Assembly: GCF_964340395.1 (NCBI RefSeq)
Contig: NC_135562.1
Coordinates: 15,321,796 to 15,385,795, forward strand
Reading direction: 5' to 3'
Origin: Glandiceps talaboti
Taxonomy: Eukaryota > Hemichordata > Enteropneusta > Spengelidae
DNA: 64,000 nucleotides
In this document: positions 1 through 22,937 of the stretch, piece after piece
Position numbering within the stretch: the stretch's first letter is position 1
Layout: each line of letters begins with the position of its first letter
Notes under the pieces: generated by a model
Told to the model about the DNA's origin: nothing
The model's database searches: none
The model's input: only the letters and a program-made list of their open reading frames with translations
Made by a program: the position numbers and the translations under genes

Positions 1-106
1 ATGTCAAATTGTCTATATTGACAGAAAACAGTGGGAAATACAGAAGAAAGACATGGTATTGTTTGAAGATTTGATTGAATAACATTCGTGTATTCACAAT
101 TTACAG

Positions 107-523
107 GTTGATGGTGATAAATTGATGCTGTGTGATTTTGGATATTCTGGTTGCATTGGATCAACCGATAATGTTGGTAATGGAACAATGCAATACATGG
201 CGCCTGAAGCTGTACTAATGAAGTGTGAAACTTTACAGCCATCGCTTGACGTATGGTCGATAGCTGCAACCGTTATTGAAATGTTTATAGACGACCTGCC
301 ATGGCCAGAAATTGACGACGACGACGATATTGAAGTCGAAATTGAATATTTACTCAAGAAATATCACAATGTACACCCCAGTGGATTGAACCAAATTGGT
401 GGTTATACTTTGGTCGAGATACTACAGTCATGTTTCTATGCCCCTGACATGAGAGCAGGTTTGGGAGAAATAATCCCGAAATTTGAAAAGTTAATTCTCG
501 AGTATGAGGATGAAATAGATTAA
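107..523 (+). CDS. Protein kinase-like gene, last exon (partial, C-lobe)
   Basis: Terminal exon of a kinase-fold gene; upstream exons lie off the left edge. A TTACAG acceptor ends at 106. The frame opens VDGDKLMLCDFGYSG, carrying the DFG of the activation segment. The APE-type motif follows (GTMQYMAPEAVL), then the helix-F signature (LDVWSIAATVIEMF) and a short acidic stretch (five Asp) after a PWPE segment; TAA lies at 521-523. DFG, the APE Glu and the helix-F Asp are all present, so this part looks able to support an active enzyme. The HRD catalytic loop and the N-lobe are not in the window, so activity cannot be judged. The substrate and subfamily are unknown; the short C-lobe ending soon after helix I suggests a small, possibly lineage-expanded Ser/Thr-type kinase. 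A weak ATTAAA at about 574 could be the poly(A) signal. Confidence 0.8.
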   Translation, partial: VDGDKLMLCDFGYSGCIGSTDNVGNGTMQYMAPEAVLMKCETLQPSLDVWSIAATVIEMFIDDLPWPEIDDDDDIEVEIEYLLKKYHNVHPSGLNQIGGYTLVEILQSCFYAPDMRAGLGEIIPKFEKLILEYEDEID

Positions 524-8629: not shown

Positions 8630-9301
8630 TTACATCCCCTCTCGGATGAATTCAATAAGTCTGTTTGGTAAAAAGAGTTGTTCTAGCGAGTTTTCACCTG
8701 TAACGTGTTTAATGATGACGGCACGGCAACGGTCTTGTAGAGATGTATAACTGCGTCTCGTCCTTTTGAGTCCCATTTCTGTCTTCGCTGCTGTCGAACA
8801 TATGATGGGGAAAATATCCGACTCCGCGTTCTTAAATCCGTCAAAGGCAACTCCAAGGGCTTCACCATCTTTGAAATAAGATAAAGTTCCTTGTAAACCA
8901 TCAAATAAAATGCCGATCGTCGTCGGTTCGTTTTCTGTAAACGGTTTGGTGTAGTTTTTACTTTCGCCTCTGTGCCATAGAAGTCCTTTGTGCGACAGTC
9001 CCCAGCTCTGGTCACTCTCTCCTAACATATTGATAAAGGCGTCAACATGAAGACGAGCTCTTTTCGTCCCAATGCCAAACATCATACTTGTGCCAAAAAT
9101 TCGTTGCGAAACATCGATTTCCCAGTAGTGGCGACCGTCGTTAAGTACCCGAGATCCCCGTGCGCCTGCCGTGCCATTTGACCAATTTGGATGGAAGAGG
9201 GCTGTCCGGTTTCTTTTGCCAAGTAGTTTTACCTCGTGTGATTTATCTTTTCTGCTCCAGGTCCAATTGTCTTCACAGCTATCCGGTAATTCATAGGGCA
9301 T
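8630..9301 (-). CDS. SPRY domain- and SOCS box-containing protein (SPSB3-like), intronless
   Basis: A complete 223-residue frame; an in-frame TGA lies just upstream of the ATG (about 9326), which supports this start. Residues about 40-175 form a B30.2/SPRY domain: GRHYWEIDV, TSMMFGIGT, SDQSWGLSHKGLLWHRG and GILFDGLQGTLSYFKDG match the SPSB3 pattern. Residues about 184-223 are a SOCS box: SLQDRCRAVI fits the Elongin-B/C-binding BC box (Leu188, Cys192), and LPNR resembles a weak Cul5 box. SPSB proteins are substrate receptors of Elongin B/C-Cullin ubiquitin ligases; vertebrate SPSB3 is known to act on nuclear cGAS. Here the substrate is unknown. The protein lacks the long N-terminal and C-terminal extensions of vertebrate SPSB3 (about 355 residues) and has no intron, so it may be a retrocopy-derived paralogue that kept its frame. 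Confidence 0.88.
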   Translation of the reverse strand: MPYELPDSCEDNWTWSRKDKSHEVKLLGKRNRTALFHPNWSNGTAGARGSRVLNDGRHYWEIDVSQRIFGTSMMFGIGTKRARLHVDAFINMLGESDQSWGLSHKGLLWHRGESKNYTKPFTENEPTTIGILFDGLQGTLSYFKDGEALGVAFDGFKNAESDIFPIICSTAAKTEMGLKRTRRSYTSLQDRCRAVIIKHVTGENSLEQLFLPNRLIEFIREGM

Positions 9302-12300
9302 CGTCGGTCCTCGATGGCAGGATCACAGAGTGACGATCTAGCAGCGAAGAGAGACAAGACTAGTCTTCGCTCCTCGTTCATCGGTGTTGCGATCTCTCTA
9401 CCCCGGAGTCGACTCAGTAACTACGCTACACTGCTCCGCCGCAGTCGGCAAGCTTGCCCTCTGTGTGCTCTGTGTGCGCAAGGTGCATCCCTCTTATAGG
9501 GTCGACAGTCTTTGCCAACTCTTTGTCATGCAATCGTCTATCATTTGTTGTTATTGTTTACAGTTTTATTATCGGGTGTGATCGTAGCGTGTGGCTGGCA
9601 CGCGGCTCTGTGTACACAAGTTGATCCGATTGGTCGAGCACGACAATGCAATCAACCAACAAAAGAAACAGCGGCATACGGGCAATCTCGTTACCTGCTC
9701 GCCCAAACAGCTGTTATCCCATCCTCGATCGAAACGTAATATTTTTAGTGCGTCAAACAGTTTTCATAGCAAATTTAACCAGAATTTCAAATATTTTGCA
9801 ATTAAATACACACTTTTATGAAGGGAAAATTATGAAATAGTTTCTGGGACTTTCTGAATAAATGTTATGATTTCATTATAGTAGGTTTTGCGTGGAATAT
9901 AACAGGTGCTTGAACGAGGACTGATTCGTTTGCCAGCTTATGAATCAAGTCGTTGATTAGCCATTGGAAAAAACAATAACTCAAGTGGCAGATGCCTTTG
10001 AAATGCTAATTTTCCGGGTTTGATCAAGGAGTCGGAAACTTTACATTACTTCAATGGTTTGGTTAGGGATTTTAATATTGAAACAATTTTCTTGAGTATA
10101 CAAAGACATGGAATCGGAGTGACCAAGAACAAAGTTCTGGCATGGTCTCTTTTTTTTCCCTTTTTTCCCTGCAAACTTAACACACCGATGAAGGGTGACA
10201 GGTGCATGAGAACGTTTTGCTCGGCAAACTTTATGTTTGTTCAGCGTAAACTCCATGTAGTTGATAATTGTACACTTTTGTTTCATAGTCGAAAGTTTTC
10301 TTTATCTTGTGGTTTCGGACCAAAATGAACAACATATGCGGCCACAGGTGCGTATGATCGTTGCCGTTCACAAACTTCGCGGACTTCGCTTTCTCGTATA
10401 TATTTCTTGGCAATTTATGTGCAACACATGTCCCTAATGCCCAAATTTTAGAATCCGAAAAGTTGGCCCGTTTTTTAAAAAATAGTTCTATTTTTTTTGG
10501 CACAAATAAAGATTTTGTTATGGCTATGACGATAGATATGGTTAAGTTTATTCGCTGGGAAAACCGCAGGCGCTTCCACTCTGTGGCATTGAGATATATA
10601 CGTAAAACGTGAAACATGTTCAGACGCAGGATCATGCACTTTCAGTGACCGCGTCTATAGAGTGACTTGGTTCACTACAGTAGTTAATATTTCTTTGAGT
10701 CAACTTGTTAAATATTTAAGTTACTTAATAATCCATACAGAACCCTACCAATGTTCAATTCAACTCCTAAGTCCACGGTGCAGTTCAGGGCGTTCGGAAA
10801 CATGTCATTTTAGTATGTGACACGACTGAGCCCGGGCCTTTACCGATATATATATCCCGTCTATCCCCTTAAAAGAAGAGGAAAAATATTCTTTTTTGTT
10901 TCGTTCAAGTACTCAATAATATGACCATCTTAAGTTCTGGTCGTCTAAAATATTCCGAAATAGTCGCAAGCAGGGACCGTTATCGTAGCTAAGCAATATT
11001 TCGACAATAAACCCGGGAATATATCCCAGAAGGTGTCAATGGAATATTAACAATACTCGTGGGAAGATTGCGAGTCCTAGTTTCTTGGCCGTCCCAAGTG
11101 TTACACCTGCCTCTTTTCCGTCGGTCGCTTTTGTCTTTCCATTCGACTTCAGCGTCTTTATATTTAGGTCAAAGTAACTTTCTTTGATTTTTTTTTTGTA
11201 TCTCGAAGAAAACTCTAGTTCTCCACAAGATGGTGATTTTTATGCGTCCATTGTGTGCAGGGCACACGGACAATTTCTCGGACTTTGGAGACGATGTGCG
11301 CGAGTACCCATCGCTTTTAGAGTCTCGGCACGTGCCAACTTTTGTAAGTCGTTCACACTGACTGGACTTAATCCGTATTTTAACTAGCTGGAACGCCAGG
11401 TTTTTTGTCCTTTAAAGTGACATCCGGCACGACTACTAAGTCCGCGTAATTATGGTGACGAAACGAAGAACCCGTGCGTGACACAACGCCCGGTACCCGG
11501 CGATCTTCATGAACACTTGAGATTTGATGAAGTCCCTCCTGGATCCCGAGTTTCTGTACCACAATGATCGTATAGAGTCAACTAACTTCTGAAATTATCA
11601 TAACTACTTTCTAAATCTACACTGGGTAATAAACGAGATAAAATTATATCACCCGAATGTATGATGGCCGCAATTTATTATCTAAAATGTTAAAATTGTT
11701 TTACAATTGTGAAATACAGTAACTTCCGTGGGGATGGAAAACGCTATGGTCGAAGTTGGCGTTCCAGGCTTGTAGAGGATTATGAAAAATGAAATTAAAA
11801 AACATCAAATCTATGTACATTGATGTCGGTTCAATTTAATATTACAGAGTCTGACTCGTCTAGCAACAAAAAAATAGATTTTGTAGTTGATTAAGTTTAT
11901 CGCAGTTATATCAGAAAACATTTTTTTTTAAGTTTAGTTTCTTTTATCCTACCCAATAATGCCTTGAAACAAAATAGGGTGGTTAAAATGTACTTGGCAA
12001 CACTTAACCTTCAACTTTAAGTTGATCCTAAGTTGCTTAGTTATATCTGTTTGCGTTACTGAGAACGGAAACTTATCATTCAGAAGTAAACACTTCACCA
12101 AGATATGAAACCACGGAAGTATTAATTCTCAAGTATACATCTCCATCATGAAAACCAACACTACGATCCTTTCCAATAGTAAGATATTTAATATTTAGTT
12201 ACCATCAAATCAACGTAAAAGAAACATGAAATACTCAATGGAGTTTCTCGAATATATGTATATTTCAGAGTTCGCTATGTAGAAATGATGGACCGTTAAT

Positions 12301-18150: not shown

Positions 18151-18657
18151 TTACGACGATGAATTAAGAGTTGTATTCCATAAACGCTAACATGACAAAG
18201 TTTCGTTGTTTTTAGGGAAGAACAATGGTGTGACATTGAATACTTGGATTAATTACACAGTCTTATGACTGAGGACTGATTTAATATTTTCTGAGAGATA
18301 CAAACGGAGTACAAAACCGCACATATCGCATACTTTTTATAACTTTAATACCCTATCTCACGGCGAAATAGGTTTTAATATCTGATGAAAAATTGACGTT
18401 TTCGTTATGTGTGATTGATTATCTAGTATAAAACAGTAAATGACATTGAATATCGTAAAATCACGTGACCTATCGAGGAAACGATACAGATATGTGTACA
18501 TAGGTCGTAACGGTGTGGTGTATTCTAATATAAGAAAAGAAGAACTGAGAAGATAATAGACAATATCCCTTTGAACATATAACGATGATCTACGTATCAT
18601 ATTATGACTGTATACAGATACTTTGAAAAGAGTACATCCATCAACATGTAGGCCTAC

Positions 18658-19092
18658 ATACACACACACACACACACATACATACGCACGCACGCACCAC
18701 GCATACATAATACATACATACATACATACATACATACATACATACATACATACACACATACATACATACGCACGCAACACGCATACATAATACATACACG
18801 CACATACATACATACATACATACACACATACATACATACATACATACATACACACATACATACATACACACGCATACATACCCACGCATACATACATACA
18901 TGCATACATACATACATGCATACATACATACATACATACATACATACATGCATACATACATACATACATACATACATACATACATACACACATACATACA
19001 ACATACATACATAGTACATACATACATACATACATACATACATACATACATACAACATACATACATAGTACATACATACATACATACATACA
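18658..19092. repeat. (CATA)n / (CA)n compound microsatellite
   Basis: About 435 bp of CATA with CACA and CGCA variants, ending 6 bp before the 3' box of U2-like copy 1. Open frames across it are repeat artefacts. Confidence 0.97.
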
Positions 19093-19098
19093 TATTAA

Positions 19099-19107
19099 TC
19101 TATCTTT
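19099..19107 (-). terminator. 3'-box-like element of U2-like copy 1
   Basis: On the minus strand reads AAAGATAGA, which fits the AAARNNAGA core of the snRNA 3' box used for Integrator-dependent 3' end formation. It lies about 15 nt past the estimated RNA 3' end, a normal distance. The GTTT half of the full consensus is not seen. Confidence 0.65.
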
Positions 19108-19121
19108 TGATTTGCATATTA

Positions 19122-19315
19122 GGGCCTATATCCCAGATGTACTGCAATACTGGGCTGACCCTACTAATCTCGTTGAAGCAAGCTTCTCAGAGACCCGTCA
19201 TTGTCAAAAATTCAGGTAACAGATTTGTGTTGCCATAACAACACCGGCAGCTGTTACGCTGACCGAGAACGGATACTACACGCGATCTTAGCCTCCAAGG
19301 GCCGTGAAACGCTAT
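19122..19315 (-). ncRNA. Divergent U2-like spliceosomal snRNA, copy 1
   Basis: About 194 nt, close to the usual U2 length of about 190. On the minus strand the RNA starts AUAGCGUUUCACGG. Visible in order: the U6 helix II segment CGUUUCAC, which pairs with the conserved U6 GUGAAGCG with one G-U; stem-loop I (arms 19300-19303 and 19290-19293); GGCUAAGAUC, the U6 helix Ia/Ib segment; branch-point recognition GUAGUA (19274-19279); stem-loop IIa (19245-19265); IIb (19227-19244); Sm site AAUUUUUGA (19204-19212); III (19168-19193); IV (19132-19154), whose loop UAUUGCAGUAC is the U2 A'/B'' site. Many 5'-half bases differ from canonical U2, yet the pairings hold. It could be a specialised paralogue or, less likely, a pseudogene family. 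Function is inferred from structure only. Confidence 0.82.
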
Positions 19316-19337
19316 GTGGATGACGAGAAGTTGCCCG

Positions 19338-19345
19338 TATTTATA
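19338..19345 (-). promoter_or_regulatory. TATA box of U2-like copy 1
   Basis: TATAAATA at -23 to -30 from the RNA 5' end. Sea-urchin U2 promoters, as I recall, use a TATA element at about -25, whereas vertebrate U2 promoters lack one. A block GGTATGG with GACGTCGG farther upstream (about 19365-19390) is shared with copy 2 and may hold the PSE. Confidence 0.7.
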
Positions 19346-19487
19346 CTCAACGTGCCAAGTAGAAGGTATGGTTTGATAAAGACGTCGGATCGACGTAGTA
19401 ACTCGTATCGTCCGATTGACGTCGTTGTGAGTAACTCGTATTGTATTGTTCGTAAGTCTTTAAACTGATGATGTAAAGTCGCCTCTG

Positions 19488-19514
19488 ATTGGCCAAATAT
19501 TTACATATGCAAAT
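19488..19514 (-). promoter_or_regulatory. Octamer plus CCAAT box, candidate distal element of U2-like copy 1
   Basis: A perfect ATGCAAAT octamer (19507-19514, read on the + strand) and a CCAAT box (minus strand, 19488-19492) lie about 175-200 bp upstream of the RNA start. snRNA distal sequence elements in animals often combine an octamer with another site near -200. This segment lies outside the duplicated unit and is absent from copy 2. Confidence 0.5.
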
Positions 19515-20028
19515 TATATACCAAACGTCACGGCGACGATTTCTCATCACAATGTATACAAAGGTCATAACACCAGAAACCAAACTATTCGTATTGGATG
19601 GACGGCCATATCCTAAAATATTAAGTTATTTATACCCTATCTCACTGCGACAAATGTTTTAATATCTGATGAAAAAATTGACGTTTTCATTGTGTGTGAT
19701 TGATTGTCCAGAATAAAATAATAACTAATATTGAACATCACGTGACCTACCAAGGAAATGATATAGATATGTGTACATAGGTCCTCATGGTGTGGTGTAT
19801 TTTTAAAAGAACTGATAAGGTAATATAACTGACGATAATAATATGTTAATTACATGTCACAGTCAGACTAAAAGTACATATACTGAGTAAGTTGGAAGTA
19901 CATCATATGTATGAAAACTTGACAATATTCCTTTGAACATAACACGATGATCTACGTATCGTTATGACTGTATACAGATACTTTGAAAAGATTTGTGGAG
20001 TACATCCATCAACATGTAGGCCTACATA

Positions 20029-20600
20029 CATCTATCCACCCACCCATCCATCCATACACACATACGCACTCACGTACACACATGCATACATAATAAATAA
20101 ATACATACATACATACATACATACATACATACCTACATACATACATACATACATACATACATACACACAATACACTCATACATGATACATACATACATAC
20201 ATACATACATACATACATACATACATACATACATACATACATACATCCATGCATACATACATACATACATACGTACGTACACACATACATGCATACATAC
20301 ATACATACATACATACATACATACCATACATACATACATACATACATACATACATACATACATACATACATACATACATACATACATACAAACATACACA
20401 CAATACACTCATACATGATACATACATACATACATACATACATACATACATACATACATACATACATACATACATACATACATACATCCATGCATACATA
20501 CATACATACATACATACGTACGTACGTCCATACATACATACATACATGATACATACATACATACATACATACATACATACATACATACATACAGTCATAC
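20029..20600. repeat. (CATA)n microsatellite
   Basis: About 570 bp of CATA with an internal higher-order duplication: ACACAATACACTCATACATG occurs at both about 20164 and about 20398. It ends just before the 3' box of copy 2. Confidence 0.97.
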
Positions 20601-20607
20601 ATATTAA

Positions 20608-20616
20608 TCTATCTTT
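20608..20616 (-). terminator. 3'-box-like element of U2-like copy 2
   Basis: AAAGATAGA on the minus strand, at the same distance past the RNA end as in copy 1. Confidence 0.65.
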
Positions 20617-20630
20617 TGATTTGCATATTA

Positions 20631-20824
20631 GGGCCTATATCCCAGATGTACTGCAATACTGGGCTGACCCTACCAATCTCGTTGAAGCAAGCTTCTCAGA
20701 GACTAGTCATTGTCAAAAATTCAGGTAACAGGTTTGTGTTGCCATAACAACACCGGCAGCTGTTACGCTGACCGAGAACGGATACTACACGCGATCTTAG
20801 CCTCCAAGGGCCGTGAAACGCTAT
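20631..20824 (-). ncRNA. Divergent U2-like spliceosomal snRNA, copy 2
   Basis: 194 nt, nearly identical to copy 1. Few differences are seen: one in the IIb-Sm linker, one in the lower part of stem III (GAUUGG instead of GAUUAG) and changes just before stem III (GACUAG against GACGGG). SLI, GGCUAAGAUC, GUAGUA, IIa, IIb, Sm site and IV are unchanged. The promoter keeps a TATA box at the same spacing. The shared unit with copy 1 shows it arose by tandem duplication. Confidence 0.82.
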
Positions 20825-20846
20825 GCGGATGACGAGAAGTAGCCCG

Positions 20847-20854
20847 TATTTATA
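20847..20854 (-). promoter_or_regulatory. TATA box of U2-like copy 2
   Basis: TATAAATA at -23 to -30, identical in place to copy 1; the flank on its far side (ATACACGG) differs. Confidence 0.7.
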
Positions 20855-21175
20855 TACACGGTATGGCTGGACGTTGGGTCGACGTCGTAGTGGTGAGTAA
20901 CTCATATTGTTGAAATACAATAGAGCAGAACAAAGGACTATTGTATTGCATTGTGCAGAAACCAATACACAACGTCTGCATACAGCATAGACCCGCCACC
21001 AACGTTGCATACAGTTACTTACGTACGTAGAAATAACGTTCTCTGTGGACACAAAACGTTTGACCAAATAATGTCGAATTCCCGTGACGTTTGACCGAAA
21101 AACATTACCAAAACGTTGCTGTGGTATTGAAAACAAATTTTCTGTATGTCAAGATAGCGTTTTCTAAACAATTGA

Positions 21176-21202
21176 CACACACACACACACACACACATAC
21201 AC
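21176..21202. repeat. (CA)n microsatellite
   Basis: Short CA run with one CATA interruption. Confidence 0.9.
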
Positions 21203-21647
21203 ACGCTTTAAAGATGGCAGTTAAACCATATATCTTGGAGGGGGACACAATTGTAATTAATATAGCCCTCTCGCCAGTCAGTTTGGTACAAATATATTTC
21301 TGTCAACAGAAATTATTTTTGCTATTAAAGAATGTTGAATGTGATGATCACAGCAGTGAAGATTGTACATGGTGCAAATTTTTGATGTATATACTGACAG
21401 TGGAATATATACAAGATCTCGGGGGGGGGGGGCGGTTACTCAAAATACCCATGGGGTTAGTCTAAGTTTATGAGGAGGGAGGGGGTTGTCACTTATATTT
21501 TGGGACATACATTCCTCCGATTCCCTCCCAGGCCGTAAATGACGATGGCACCTTAGTGATACTGATAGCCGTGTTTGTAAATGTGTGTATTTATCCACTC
21601 TCGCAAGCCATAGCACATGATTTCTACCGTAGCAACAAAATTTGTCT

Positions 21648-21700
21648 TGGCAGTGCGTGTTGGACGGTGCCGTAAAAGAGGATGTGGTTTACGACGATGG
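21648..21700. repeat. Short dispersed repeat, copy 3
   Basis: GGACGGTGCCGTAAAAG followed by AGGATGTGGTTTACGACG, closely matching the copy at 18061-18150 and its flank. Confidence 0.65.
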
Positions 21701-22076
21701 TAGTAAATATTTACCTAGATCTGTACCCGTCTCTGTCTCTATTGTGCAGGAGGTATTATTAAGAGGTTTGGTGTTTGAGAATGTTATAACATCATAATAA
21801 TCATGTACTGATGTATCAATTACAATGAACAAATTTATAGAACTGGAAAGTATGGCATAAGTTTTGGGAGAGCTAATATCTATTATGACACTGGCACTGA
21901 CATATTTGTTACTACAGAGCATAGACCCTCCTGGTGGAGGGTCTATGTACAGAGCTGGGCCTGTTGATACACTTTTATAATACATTCGTTGCAGCAGCAA
22001 CAACAACAACAACAACAACAAATGTTTAAGAAAAAAACAGACAACGTAGAAGTCAAACGCCTTGACAAATTCACTT

Positions 22077-22085
22077 TCTATCTTT
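22077..22085 (-). terminator. 3'-box-like element of U2-like copy 3
   Basis: AAAGATAGA on the minus strand. Homology between copy 3 and copies 1 and 2 stops right at this element, which suggests it is the functional limit of the gene. Confidence 0.65.
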
Positions 22086-22099
22086 TGATTTGCATATTA

Positions 22100-22291
22100 G
22101 GGCCTATCCCAGATGTACTGCAATACTGGGCTGACCCTACCAATCTCGTTGAAGCAAGCTTCTCAGAGACGAGTCATTGTCAAAAATTCAGGTAACAGGT
22201 TTGTGTTGCCATAACAACACCGGCAGCTGTTACGCTGACCGAGAACGGATACTACACGCGATCTAAGCCTCAAAGGGCCGTGAAACGCTAT
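22100..22291 (-). ncRNA. Divergent U2-like spliceosomal snRNA, copy 3
   Basis: 192 nt; lacks two bases after stem IV that copies 1 and 2 have. The 5' domain reads GGCUUAGAUC, so one A between U6 helices Ia and Ib is replaced by U, and the SLI loop has UUUGA instead of UUGGA. GUAGUA, IIa, IIb, IIc partner, Sm site and IV are intact. Homology to the other copies covers the RNA plus the segment through the 3' box and no further on either side. The promoter is therefore unrelated in sequence, yet it has a TATA box at the same position. This copy could be the most diverged functional member or an insertion captured by a fortuitous TATA. Confidence 0.78.
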
Positions 22292-22313: not shown

Positions 22314-22321
22314 ATTTTATA
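22314..22321 (-). promoter_or_regulatory. TATA box of U2-like copy 3
   Basis: TATAAAAT at -23 to -30, the same place as in copies 1 and 2 although the rest of the upstream sequence is unrelated. Confidence 0.55.
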
Positions 22322-22937
22322 CCCCAGTTTGTTGAAATTGCGGTGCAGTTCGAGTTTGACGAAGGGCTGACGTTTGCCTTTTCACGTCGGTCTTACGTTC
22401 AAGAAAACAATGTCTGTCGTAGAGGGCGACATTTGGTGAACTTTGCTCCAGATAGATACGTCATCGTTATCCCTTTTCTTTAGAACTGTTCATTTGTTTA
22501 TCCATATATGGTAGACCTTCCCACGCCTCTAAGTAACGTCACAGCGGGTATCTAAAAACTCATCCGTGCATGGGTAAACTTATATCGCATGTTTTCCGGG
22601 AAGAAACTTTATTTCCAGAAGCTATTACTAGAAATACGACAAACGCAGACTAAGTTTTAATCTTGTGGTAGTCTTCGAAATAGTACACACGCTACCGCTG
22701 GAAGTTGAGACGTACATTGGAAGGTGAACAATTCTCCAACCGAGACTGAATTTCATTTGTTTTTTTATTTGGTACTGAACAAGTCTCATACGCCGCTGAC
22801 ACCGGACCTTTATTTACATCTTCAGGCCATCTGGTTTCCGCTTTTCTTTTCTCCCTTGGAAGGTCGGAGTGGAAGTGATCCAGTCACCTACAGCATTTTA
22901 ATATCGGTGTCACTTTTCAAAAAACATATATTATAGG

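Follow-up and report, generated by a model that had tools for sequence, protein, structure and literature searches.

Three diverged U2-like small nuclear RNA loci in an enteropneust keep U2 pairings through compensatory change

Three full-length U2-like loci in one window

We analyzed a stretch of 64,000 nucleotides (nt) from the acorn worm Glandiceps talaboti (NC_135562.1, positions 15,321,796 to 15,385,795; here, the window, C15:15321796-15385795 in our genome search). A first-pass annotation had described U2-like small nuclear RNA (snRNA) units on its minus strand, with the parts of U2 in their usual order from GUAGUA through stem-loops I, IIa, and IIb and the Sm site to stem-loops III and IV. 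A cmscan search of the window against Rfam bore this out. It gave three matches to the U2 model (RF00004), all on the minus strand and each covering model positions 1 to 192, and these were the sole matches above the cut-off (94.1 to 97.9 bits against a gathering score of 46 bits; E values of 2e-18 to 1.6e-17).

22093..22291, minus strand: U2-like snRNA copy 1 (Rfam match 22289-22093, 97.9 bits; probable start 22291, mature 3' end approximate)
20625..20824, minus strand: U2-like snRNA copy 2 (Rfam match 20822-20625, 96.6 bits; probable start 20824; 58 of 60 helix pairs kept)
19116..19315, minus strand: U2-like snRNA copy 3 (Rfam match 19313-19116, 94.1 bits; probable start 19315; 57 of 60 helix pairs kept)

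The copies align with one another from ATAGCG on, two bases upstream of the Rfam limits. Because of this homology and of the spacing to the TATA boxes described below, the RNA 5' ends probably lie at 22291, 20824, and 19315. Minimum-free-energy (MFE) folds showed a further part, stem IIc, beside those first listed. A plasmid search and an exact-pattern search of IMG/VR gave no match.

The trio is separate from the ordinary U2 of the animal

The genome searched comprised 590,416,875 bases in 47 contigs, and the snRNA counts given here are lower bounds, with 41 to 48 first-look candidates scored per model search (46 of 35073 for U2). The U2 search yielded at least 28 matches at an E value of ≤0.001, at least 20 of them full-length ordinary U2 genes (167 to 192 bits). 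The remaining matches were two copies with a replaced 5' end (155.6 and 129.5 bits), the trio in the window, two fragments (57.7 and 56.4 bits), and one match below the cut-off (39 bits). Nucleotides 1 to 66 were identical in all 20 full-length ordinary genes. The variant differed from host U2 at 17 of these 66 positions, with insertions in addition, and each of its copies differed from the Rfam consensus at 19 of the 66, in agreement with the many changes reported for the 5' part.

Identity to the ordinary U2 gene L003 was 65% for copy 1, 63% for copy 2, and 64% for copy 3. Because full-length canonical U2 genes occur in the same genome and identity to one of them is 63 to 65%, we take the trio to be a U2 paralogue, as had been suspected, and not the animal's ordinary U2. 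No fourth variant copy was found by the U2 model search or by a genome BLAST search with copy 2 and its flanks, which returned three matches, the trio only.

In a tree, the three variant copies were joined with full support, although the bootstrap had not settled. The distances between variant and host U2 were 0.95 plus 0.55 changes per column, with 0.38 for the Rfam consensus row, and the tree gives no date for the split. C53 and the CUGA of IIc are common to the variant and host U2 and differ from human U2. An idea of recent origin built on these letters was dropped because Drosophila U2 has them as well. At G000:C14:18344232-18418745, canonical U2 genes are clustered in both orientations, and the two 5'-replaced copies and one fragment lie among them.

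U6-pairing segments, the Sm site, and the loop motifs of stems III and IV are kept

The short motifs of copy 2 are located as follows.

20812..20820, minus strand: U6 helix II segment CGUUUCACG, 9 of 9 pairs with host U6 CGUGAAGCG
20783..20788, minus strand: GUAGUA branch-site recognition sequence, unchanged
20713..20721, minus strand: Sm site AAUUUUUGA
20672..20707, minus strand: stem-loop III with GCUUGC kept
20631..20670, minus strand: stem-loop IV with AUUGCAGUAC kept

The corresponding segment of host U2, CGCUUCUCG, forms only eight of nine pairs with the same segment of host U6 (gene L029), versus all nine for the variant. The change at position 9 improves U6 helix II and breaks a pair of lower stem I. 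The U6 helix I segment reads GGCUAAGAUC in copies 2 and 3 and GGCUUAGAUC in copy 1. All three copies have GUAGUA in the context GUGUAGUAUC, together with AUUUUUG at the Sm site, GCUUGC in loop III, and AUUGCAGUAC in loop IV.

We wrote six motif patterns (U6 helix II, U6 helix I, GUAGUA context, Sm site, loop III, and loop IV) such that they admitted the variant letters. The full set was present in the three variant copies and in 19 of the 20 full-length canonical genes (L010 was without the stem IV pattern). None of five truncated or decayed U2 copies had all six (L021, L022, L026, L027, and L028). These results, with the complete pairing of helix II, support the earlier observation that GUAGUA and the U6-pairing segments are retained.

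Substitutions in the helices come in matched pairs

Stems IIa, IIb, and IIc have these positions in copy 2.

20754..20774, minus strand: stem-loop IIa, with UAU/AUA of the stem replaced by CGG/CCG and one bulged U added
20760..20771, minus strand: 5' strand of IIc (UCAG and GUAACAG), overlapping IIa, from the MFE fold
20736..20753, minus strand: stem-loop IIb, with five two-sided changes relative to host U2
20721..20731, minus strand: 3' strand of IIc (CUGUUAC and CUGA), from the MFE fold

In the branch-site stem-loop (BSL), pair A29-U41 of host U2 is replaced by G-C, and five of five pairs are kept. The IIa pairs U47-A66, A48-U65, and U49-A64 have become C-G, G-C, and G-C, and the IIc pairs U54-A, U58-A, and U60-A have become G-C, C-G, and G-C, IIc keeping 11 pairs, 3 of them through two-sided change. 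Across nt 25 to 66 and the seven central IIc pairs, all substitutions relative to host U2 are matched in pairs, except at position 30. In addition, IIa has gained a U, and a single base is absent opposite C53. Relative to the Rfam consensus, pair 53-96 is lost; host U2 itself has C53 opposite an A, unpaired there. Upper stem I keeps four of four pairs and lower stem I two of three (9-24 is A.A), and the loop of stem I is longer than that of host U2.

A full pairing test covered ten helices and 60 pairs, with four nucleotides shared between IIa and IIc. Copies 1, 2, and 3 kept 57, 58, and 57 pairs, with 19, 20, and 20 two-sided compensatory changes, respectively. Random bases placed in these columns preserved at most 54, 54, and 55 pairs, and the observed values were never reached (0 of 5000, 20000, and 5000 rounds for copies 1, 2, and 3). 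A smaller test on the BSL, IIa, and IIc only comprised 14 substitutions at paired positions, which form seven compensatory pairs, and 21 of 21 pairs were kept. This outcome was reached in 0 of 100000 rounds with random positions and bases and in 354 of 100000 (P about 0.004) with fixed positions and random bases; three UCAG/CUGA pairs in this test consist of unchanged letters and were placed via a one-base shift. The variant had been called structurally intact, and this stands for nearly all of the 60 pairs but not for pair 9-24 of lower stem I or for one outer stem IV pair, both lost in all three copies.

The register of IIc was taken from the covariance-model alignment for the seven central pairs, and its UCAG/CUGA end assumes one base missing opposite C53. 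In an automatic MAFFT alignment, the 3' strand of IIc stood one column off and the extra U of IIa had another place than in the covariance-model register. IIc lies outside the Rfam structure and was seen in the unconstrained MFE folds of all three copies. For the variant fragment from about nt 43 to 110, the drawing with IIa and IIb had a free energy of -14.6 kcal/mol and that with IIc and IIb one of -20.9 kcal/mol, both being formable. Host U2 in the same drawings gave -15.7 and -16.6 kcal/mol, and its own minimum, an extended IIc, lay at -22.9 kcal/mol. On the predicted folds and the kept pairings, the variant appears to keep IIa and IIc as mutually exclusive stems.

TATA boxes and 3' boxes flank every copy

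The following elements were located around the three RNAs.

22333..22350, minus strand: weak proximal sequence element (PSE)-like AACTGCACCGCAATTTCA at -59, copy 1 (0.8 bits; P per site, 0.009; 0.18 over 19 positions, not significant)
22316..22321, minus strand: TATAAA at -30, copy 1
22077..22086, minus strand: 3' box AAAAGATAGA, copy 1 (homology to copy 2 ends at 22077)
20849..20854, minus strand: TATAAA at -30, copy 2
20608..20617, minus strand: 3' box AAAAGATAGA, copy 2
19356..19373, minus strand: weak PSE-like AACCATACCTTCTACTTG at -58, copy 3 (-2.9 bits; P per site, 0.03; 0.59 over 19 positions, not significant)
19340..19345, minus strand: TATAAA at -30, copy 3
19099..19108, minus strand: 3' box AAAAGATAGA, copy 3

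At -30 or nearby, none of the 22 canonical U2 copies had TATAAA, TATATA, or TTTATA, and a TATATA at -10 was seen in one. The word AAAAGATAGA, which from its consensus we take to be the snRNA 3' box, stands 6 to 7 nt past the Rfam end in each variant copy, and host U2 genes carry similar boxes.

We derived the host PSE model (AACCGYAC...GTTTT, mostly at -56 to -60) from 43 U1, U2, U4, and U6 promoters, 19 of which were non-redundant. In leave-one-out scoring, 14 of these 19 canonical promoters reached 11.6 to 19.9 and 5 scored from -4.6 to 7.0. Copy 2 had no PSE in place (best, -8.1 bits; 2.1 over 19 positions), and its PSE-to-TATA interval is about 14 nt shorter than that of copy 3. The host U6 promoter carries the same PSE-like octamer, AACTGCAC, as copy 1.

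The RNA is conserved between diverged flanks

Copies 2 and 3 sit in tandem units, in an array rich in simple repeats, and each unit includes a non-repetitive flank.

19629..20023, minus strand: non-repetitive flank of the copy 2 tandem unit, matching 18345-18640
18345..18640, minus strand: non-repetitive flank of the copy 3 tandem unit

The RNAs of copies 2 and 3 differ at 4 of 200 positions, against 42 substitutions in 286 positions and 7 gap runs in the flank (Fisher's test, P = 5e-7). Immediately upstream, from -40 to -1, the two agree at 32 of 40 positions; farther upstream, their agreement is at the level of shuffled sequence, as it is for copy 1 along the whole upstream region. The differences between copies are in the stem I loop, at position 23, in the linker before IIc, in stem III, in the inner loop of stem IV, and at the last base, and none is within the BSL, IIa, IIb, IIc, or the Sm site. 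Two-sided compensation and an RNA conserved amid diverged flanks thus point, as the first-pass annotation had proposed, to divergence under constraint and not to plain decay.

Copy 1 matches copy 2 only at 22291-22077 (97.7%), a segment that begins at the RNA start and closes with the 3' box. An origin of copy 1 by retroposition was considered, to which this confinement of the homology would correspond; against it, copy 1 has TATAAA at equal spacing (TATAAA rate, 0.00074 per site), and a flank segment near it (21699-21645) is shared with 18161-18103, beyond copy 3. We favor an old tandem duplication as the probable origin. Behind copies 3 and 2, the tandem unit continues with long ATGT repeats (18640-19095 and 20020-20600), and the sub-threshold microRNA-family matches of the window lie mostly on ATGT repeats.

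Other spliceosomal snRNAs of the genome

No parallel set of variant snRNAs was found among the U1, U4, U5, and U6 matches scored, a search that a very different partner sequence would escape. For U1, 15 of 20 matches were of canonical grade (149 to 161 bits), three more fell below the cut-off, and two were diverged copies (102.2 bits for L045 and 95.1 bits for L046).

C17:20354328-20354496: diverged U1, L045
C13:1580478-1580646: diverged U1, L046

These two copies start with ATGCTGTGACTTGG instead of ATACTTACCTGG, have the Sm site AATTAATGA, and share a 3' flank on different contigs; a third, truncated U1 (L048) has the same flank. We rejected L045 and L046 as an intact variant U1 parallel to the variant U2. 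Because the 5' splice-site sequence is lost and the Sm site is changed, they are read as dispersed, decayed U1.

All seven U4 matches scored 111 to 121 bits, and 12 of 13 U5 matches scored 87 to 103 bits. The remaining U5-like match, L073 (G000:C19:16578166-16578254), lay well under these at 55.8 bits but exceeded the cut-off of 40. The U6 search gave a single gene (L029, G000:C10:24178659-24178766), and the U6 core pattern occurred once in the genome at zero mismatches. This single gene stands against at least 20 U2 and at least 15 U1 genes, and more U6 genes are possibly hidden by the first-look limits of the model search.

A selected paralogue, recent decay, or another fate

We consider it probable that the trio is a selected, diverged U2 paralogue of an enteropneust and that it works as an alternative U2 snRNA. 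The loci look like a second, specialized U2 rather than a dead gene because the changes come in matched pairs that keep both the folding and the partner contacts. Like U2 of RF00004, the host's own included, the variant spans the whole model and has GUAGUA, the U6 contacts, IIa, IIb, and IIc, the Sm site, stem-loops III and IV, and the 3' box. It is unlike host U2 in its overall identity, in the changed quarter of its 5' part, in the recoding of IIa, IIb, IIc, and III, in the TATA box at -30, and in lacking a significant PSE.

Several observations weigh against this interpretation. The main evidence against full present activity is the PSE, which was significant in none of the three copies in the position-weight test, an earlier version with 14 promoters having agreed. 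A weak PSE alone is no proof of inactivity, because 5 of the 19 canonical promoters score low too. The U2/U6 core of copy 1 carries A23>U, and stem IV of the same copy has a 2-nt deletion. One mismatch interrupts outer stem III in each of copies 1 and 3, and every copy has lost pair 9-24 in lower stem I and the sixth pair in outer stem IV. Alignment was manual for the strands of IIb, III, and IV and for the UCAG/CUGA end of IIc. The whole RNAs were only moderately more stable than shuffled sequences (z = -1.80, -1.46, and -1.36), and the predicted MFE folds of copies 1 and 3 deviate from the U2 fold outside IIb and IIc; the case for the variant rests on the pairings, not on overall stability. 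Short gene-conversion tracts, instead of selection, could also keep the copies alike.

Some of the same evidence would fit a once functional U2 paralogue whose helices were rewritten under past selection and whose genes are now in recent decay, with weak or no expression. Recent decay could account for the weak PSEs, the shorter PSE-to-TATA interval of copy 2, the A23>U change of copy 1, and the lesions that single copies carry in stems III and IV. We nevertheless judge it unlikely, since copies 2 and 3 have stayed so alike in the RNA while their flanks diverged, the TATA and 3' boxes are present in every copy, and no change between copies touches the BSL, IIa, IIb, IIc, or the Sm site.

The promoters also bear on which polymerase is used. 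TATAAA at -30 in all three copies, set against none of the canonical ones, and the octamer that copy 1 shares with the U6 promoter are what polymerase III genes with a PSE and a TATA box might show. Transcription of such genes would either terminate in the U5 run within the Sm site, giving a non-spliceosomal 5' U2 fragment, or produce a full RNA with a non-splicing role. This is very improbable, as stems III and IV, the AUUGCAGUAC loop, and the 3' box, all lying beyond the U5 run, have been kept, and TATA-containing polymerase II U2 promoters are known in sea urchins. We give least credence of all to ordinary U2 pseudogenes that look structured by chance. The setting in an array of simple repeats and the occurrence of other snRNA pseudogenes in the genome (L021, L022, L026-L028, and the diverged U1 copies L045 and L046) would be in line with it, but the observed pairing was not reached by random substitutions, and the pairing tests and the flank comparison together largely contradict it. 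Those other pseudogenes also behave differently: the decayed U2 copies have lost motifs, and in the decayed U1 copies the 5' splice-site sequence is gone and the Sm site altered.

If the trio is a working alternative U2, its likely route of expression would be transcription by RNA polymerase II and processing by Integrator, with the TATA box about 30 bp upstream and the 3' box after the gene. From the kept sequence and pairing, an Sm ring would assemble on AAUUUUUGA, stem IV would bind U2A'/B'', and the BSL, IIa, and IIb would fold for SF3 binding. The unchanged GUAGUA may pair with branch sites, helices Ia, Ib, and II may form with ordinary U6, and the RNA may switch from IIa to IIc. The product would be an alternative U2 small nuclear ribonucleoprotein (snRNP) that acts on ordinary introns and whose expression is probably restricted. 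This is the simplest role, because the pairing code of the BSL, IIa, and IIc is rewritten and the branch-site and U6 contacts are unchanged. More tentatively, and with some doubt on our part, the animal might have two U2 snRNPs, the invariant ordinary one and a second that escaped from concerted evolution, uses the same U6, and acts on part of the introns or in a particular setting, for example the germ line or the embryo.

Relation to known U2 systems

The 5' part of U2 is nearly invariant across animals, and U12 of the minor spliceosome is another RNA doing the job of U2. Unlike U12, the trio keeps the GUAGUA of U2 in three of three copies, along with the U2-U6 segments, and Rfam assigns it to U2. 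A search of the open-access literature gave no match on a hemichordate U2 or on a paralogous invertebrate U2 with compensatory change.

One paper describes several U2 genes per genome, some of them stage or tissue expressed, in Drosophila, mouse, silk moth, Dictyostelium, and sea urchin, the sea urchin isoforms being developmentally regulated, and multicopy snRNA genes that evolve in concert (PMC4291461). The Drosophila paralogues vary, according to that paper, at four positions, whereas about one-third of the RNA is changed in the acorn worm variant, with the helices rewritten pairwise. Human RNU2-2, as portrayed in another paper, is a U2 paralogue that was first annotated as a pseudogene and later found to be expressed and disease linked; patients have single-base changes, such as n.48A>C and n.61C>G, with positions 40, 42, 48, 61, and 62 among those affected (PMC13083260). 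Unlike these single changes, the one that the acorn worm variant has at position 48 is balanced by a change at position 65.

Two further papers treat the branch-site stem-loop and the IIa/IIc switch (PMC8516221 and PMC6633205), and the variant would lend both features evolutionary support in an animal. A paralogue with a quarter of the U2 5' part changed and nearly every pairing kept amounts to a natural experiment on which letters are held by pairing alone. If expressed, it would also offer a testable case of U2 snRNP specialization.

Other genes in the window

Two protein-coding features were observed elsewhere in the window.

83-523, plus strand: partial protein kinase domain (Pfam PF00069)
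8630-9322, minus strand: SPSB3-like SPRY/SOCS-box gene (best named relatives among 120 of 622 matches: Ptychodera flava, 81% identity, and Saccoglossus kowalevskii, 80% identity)

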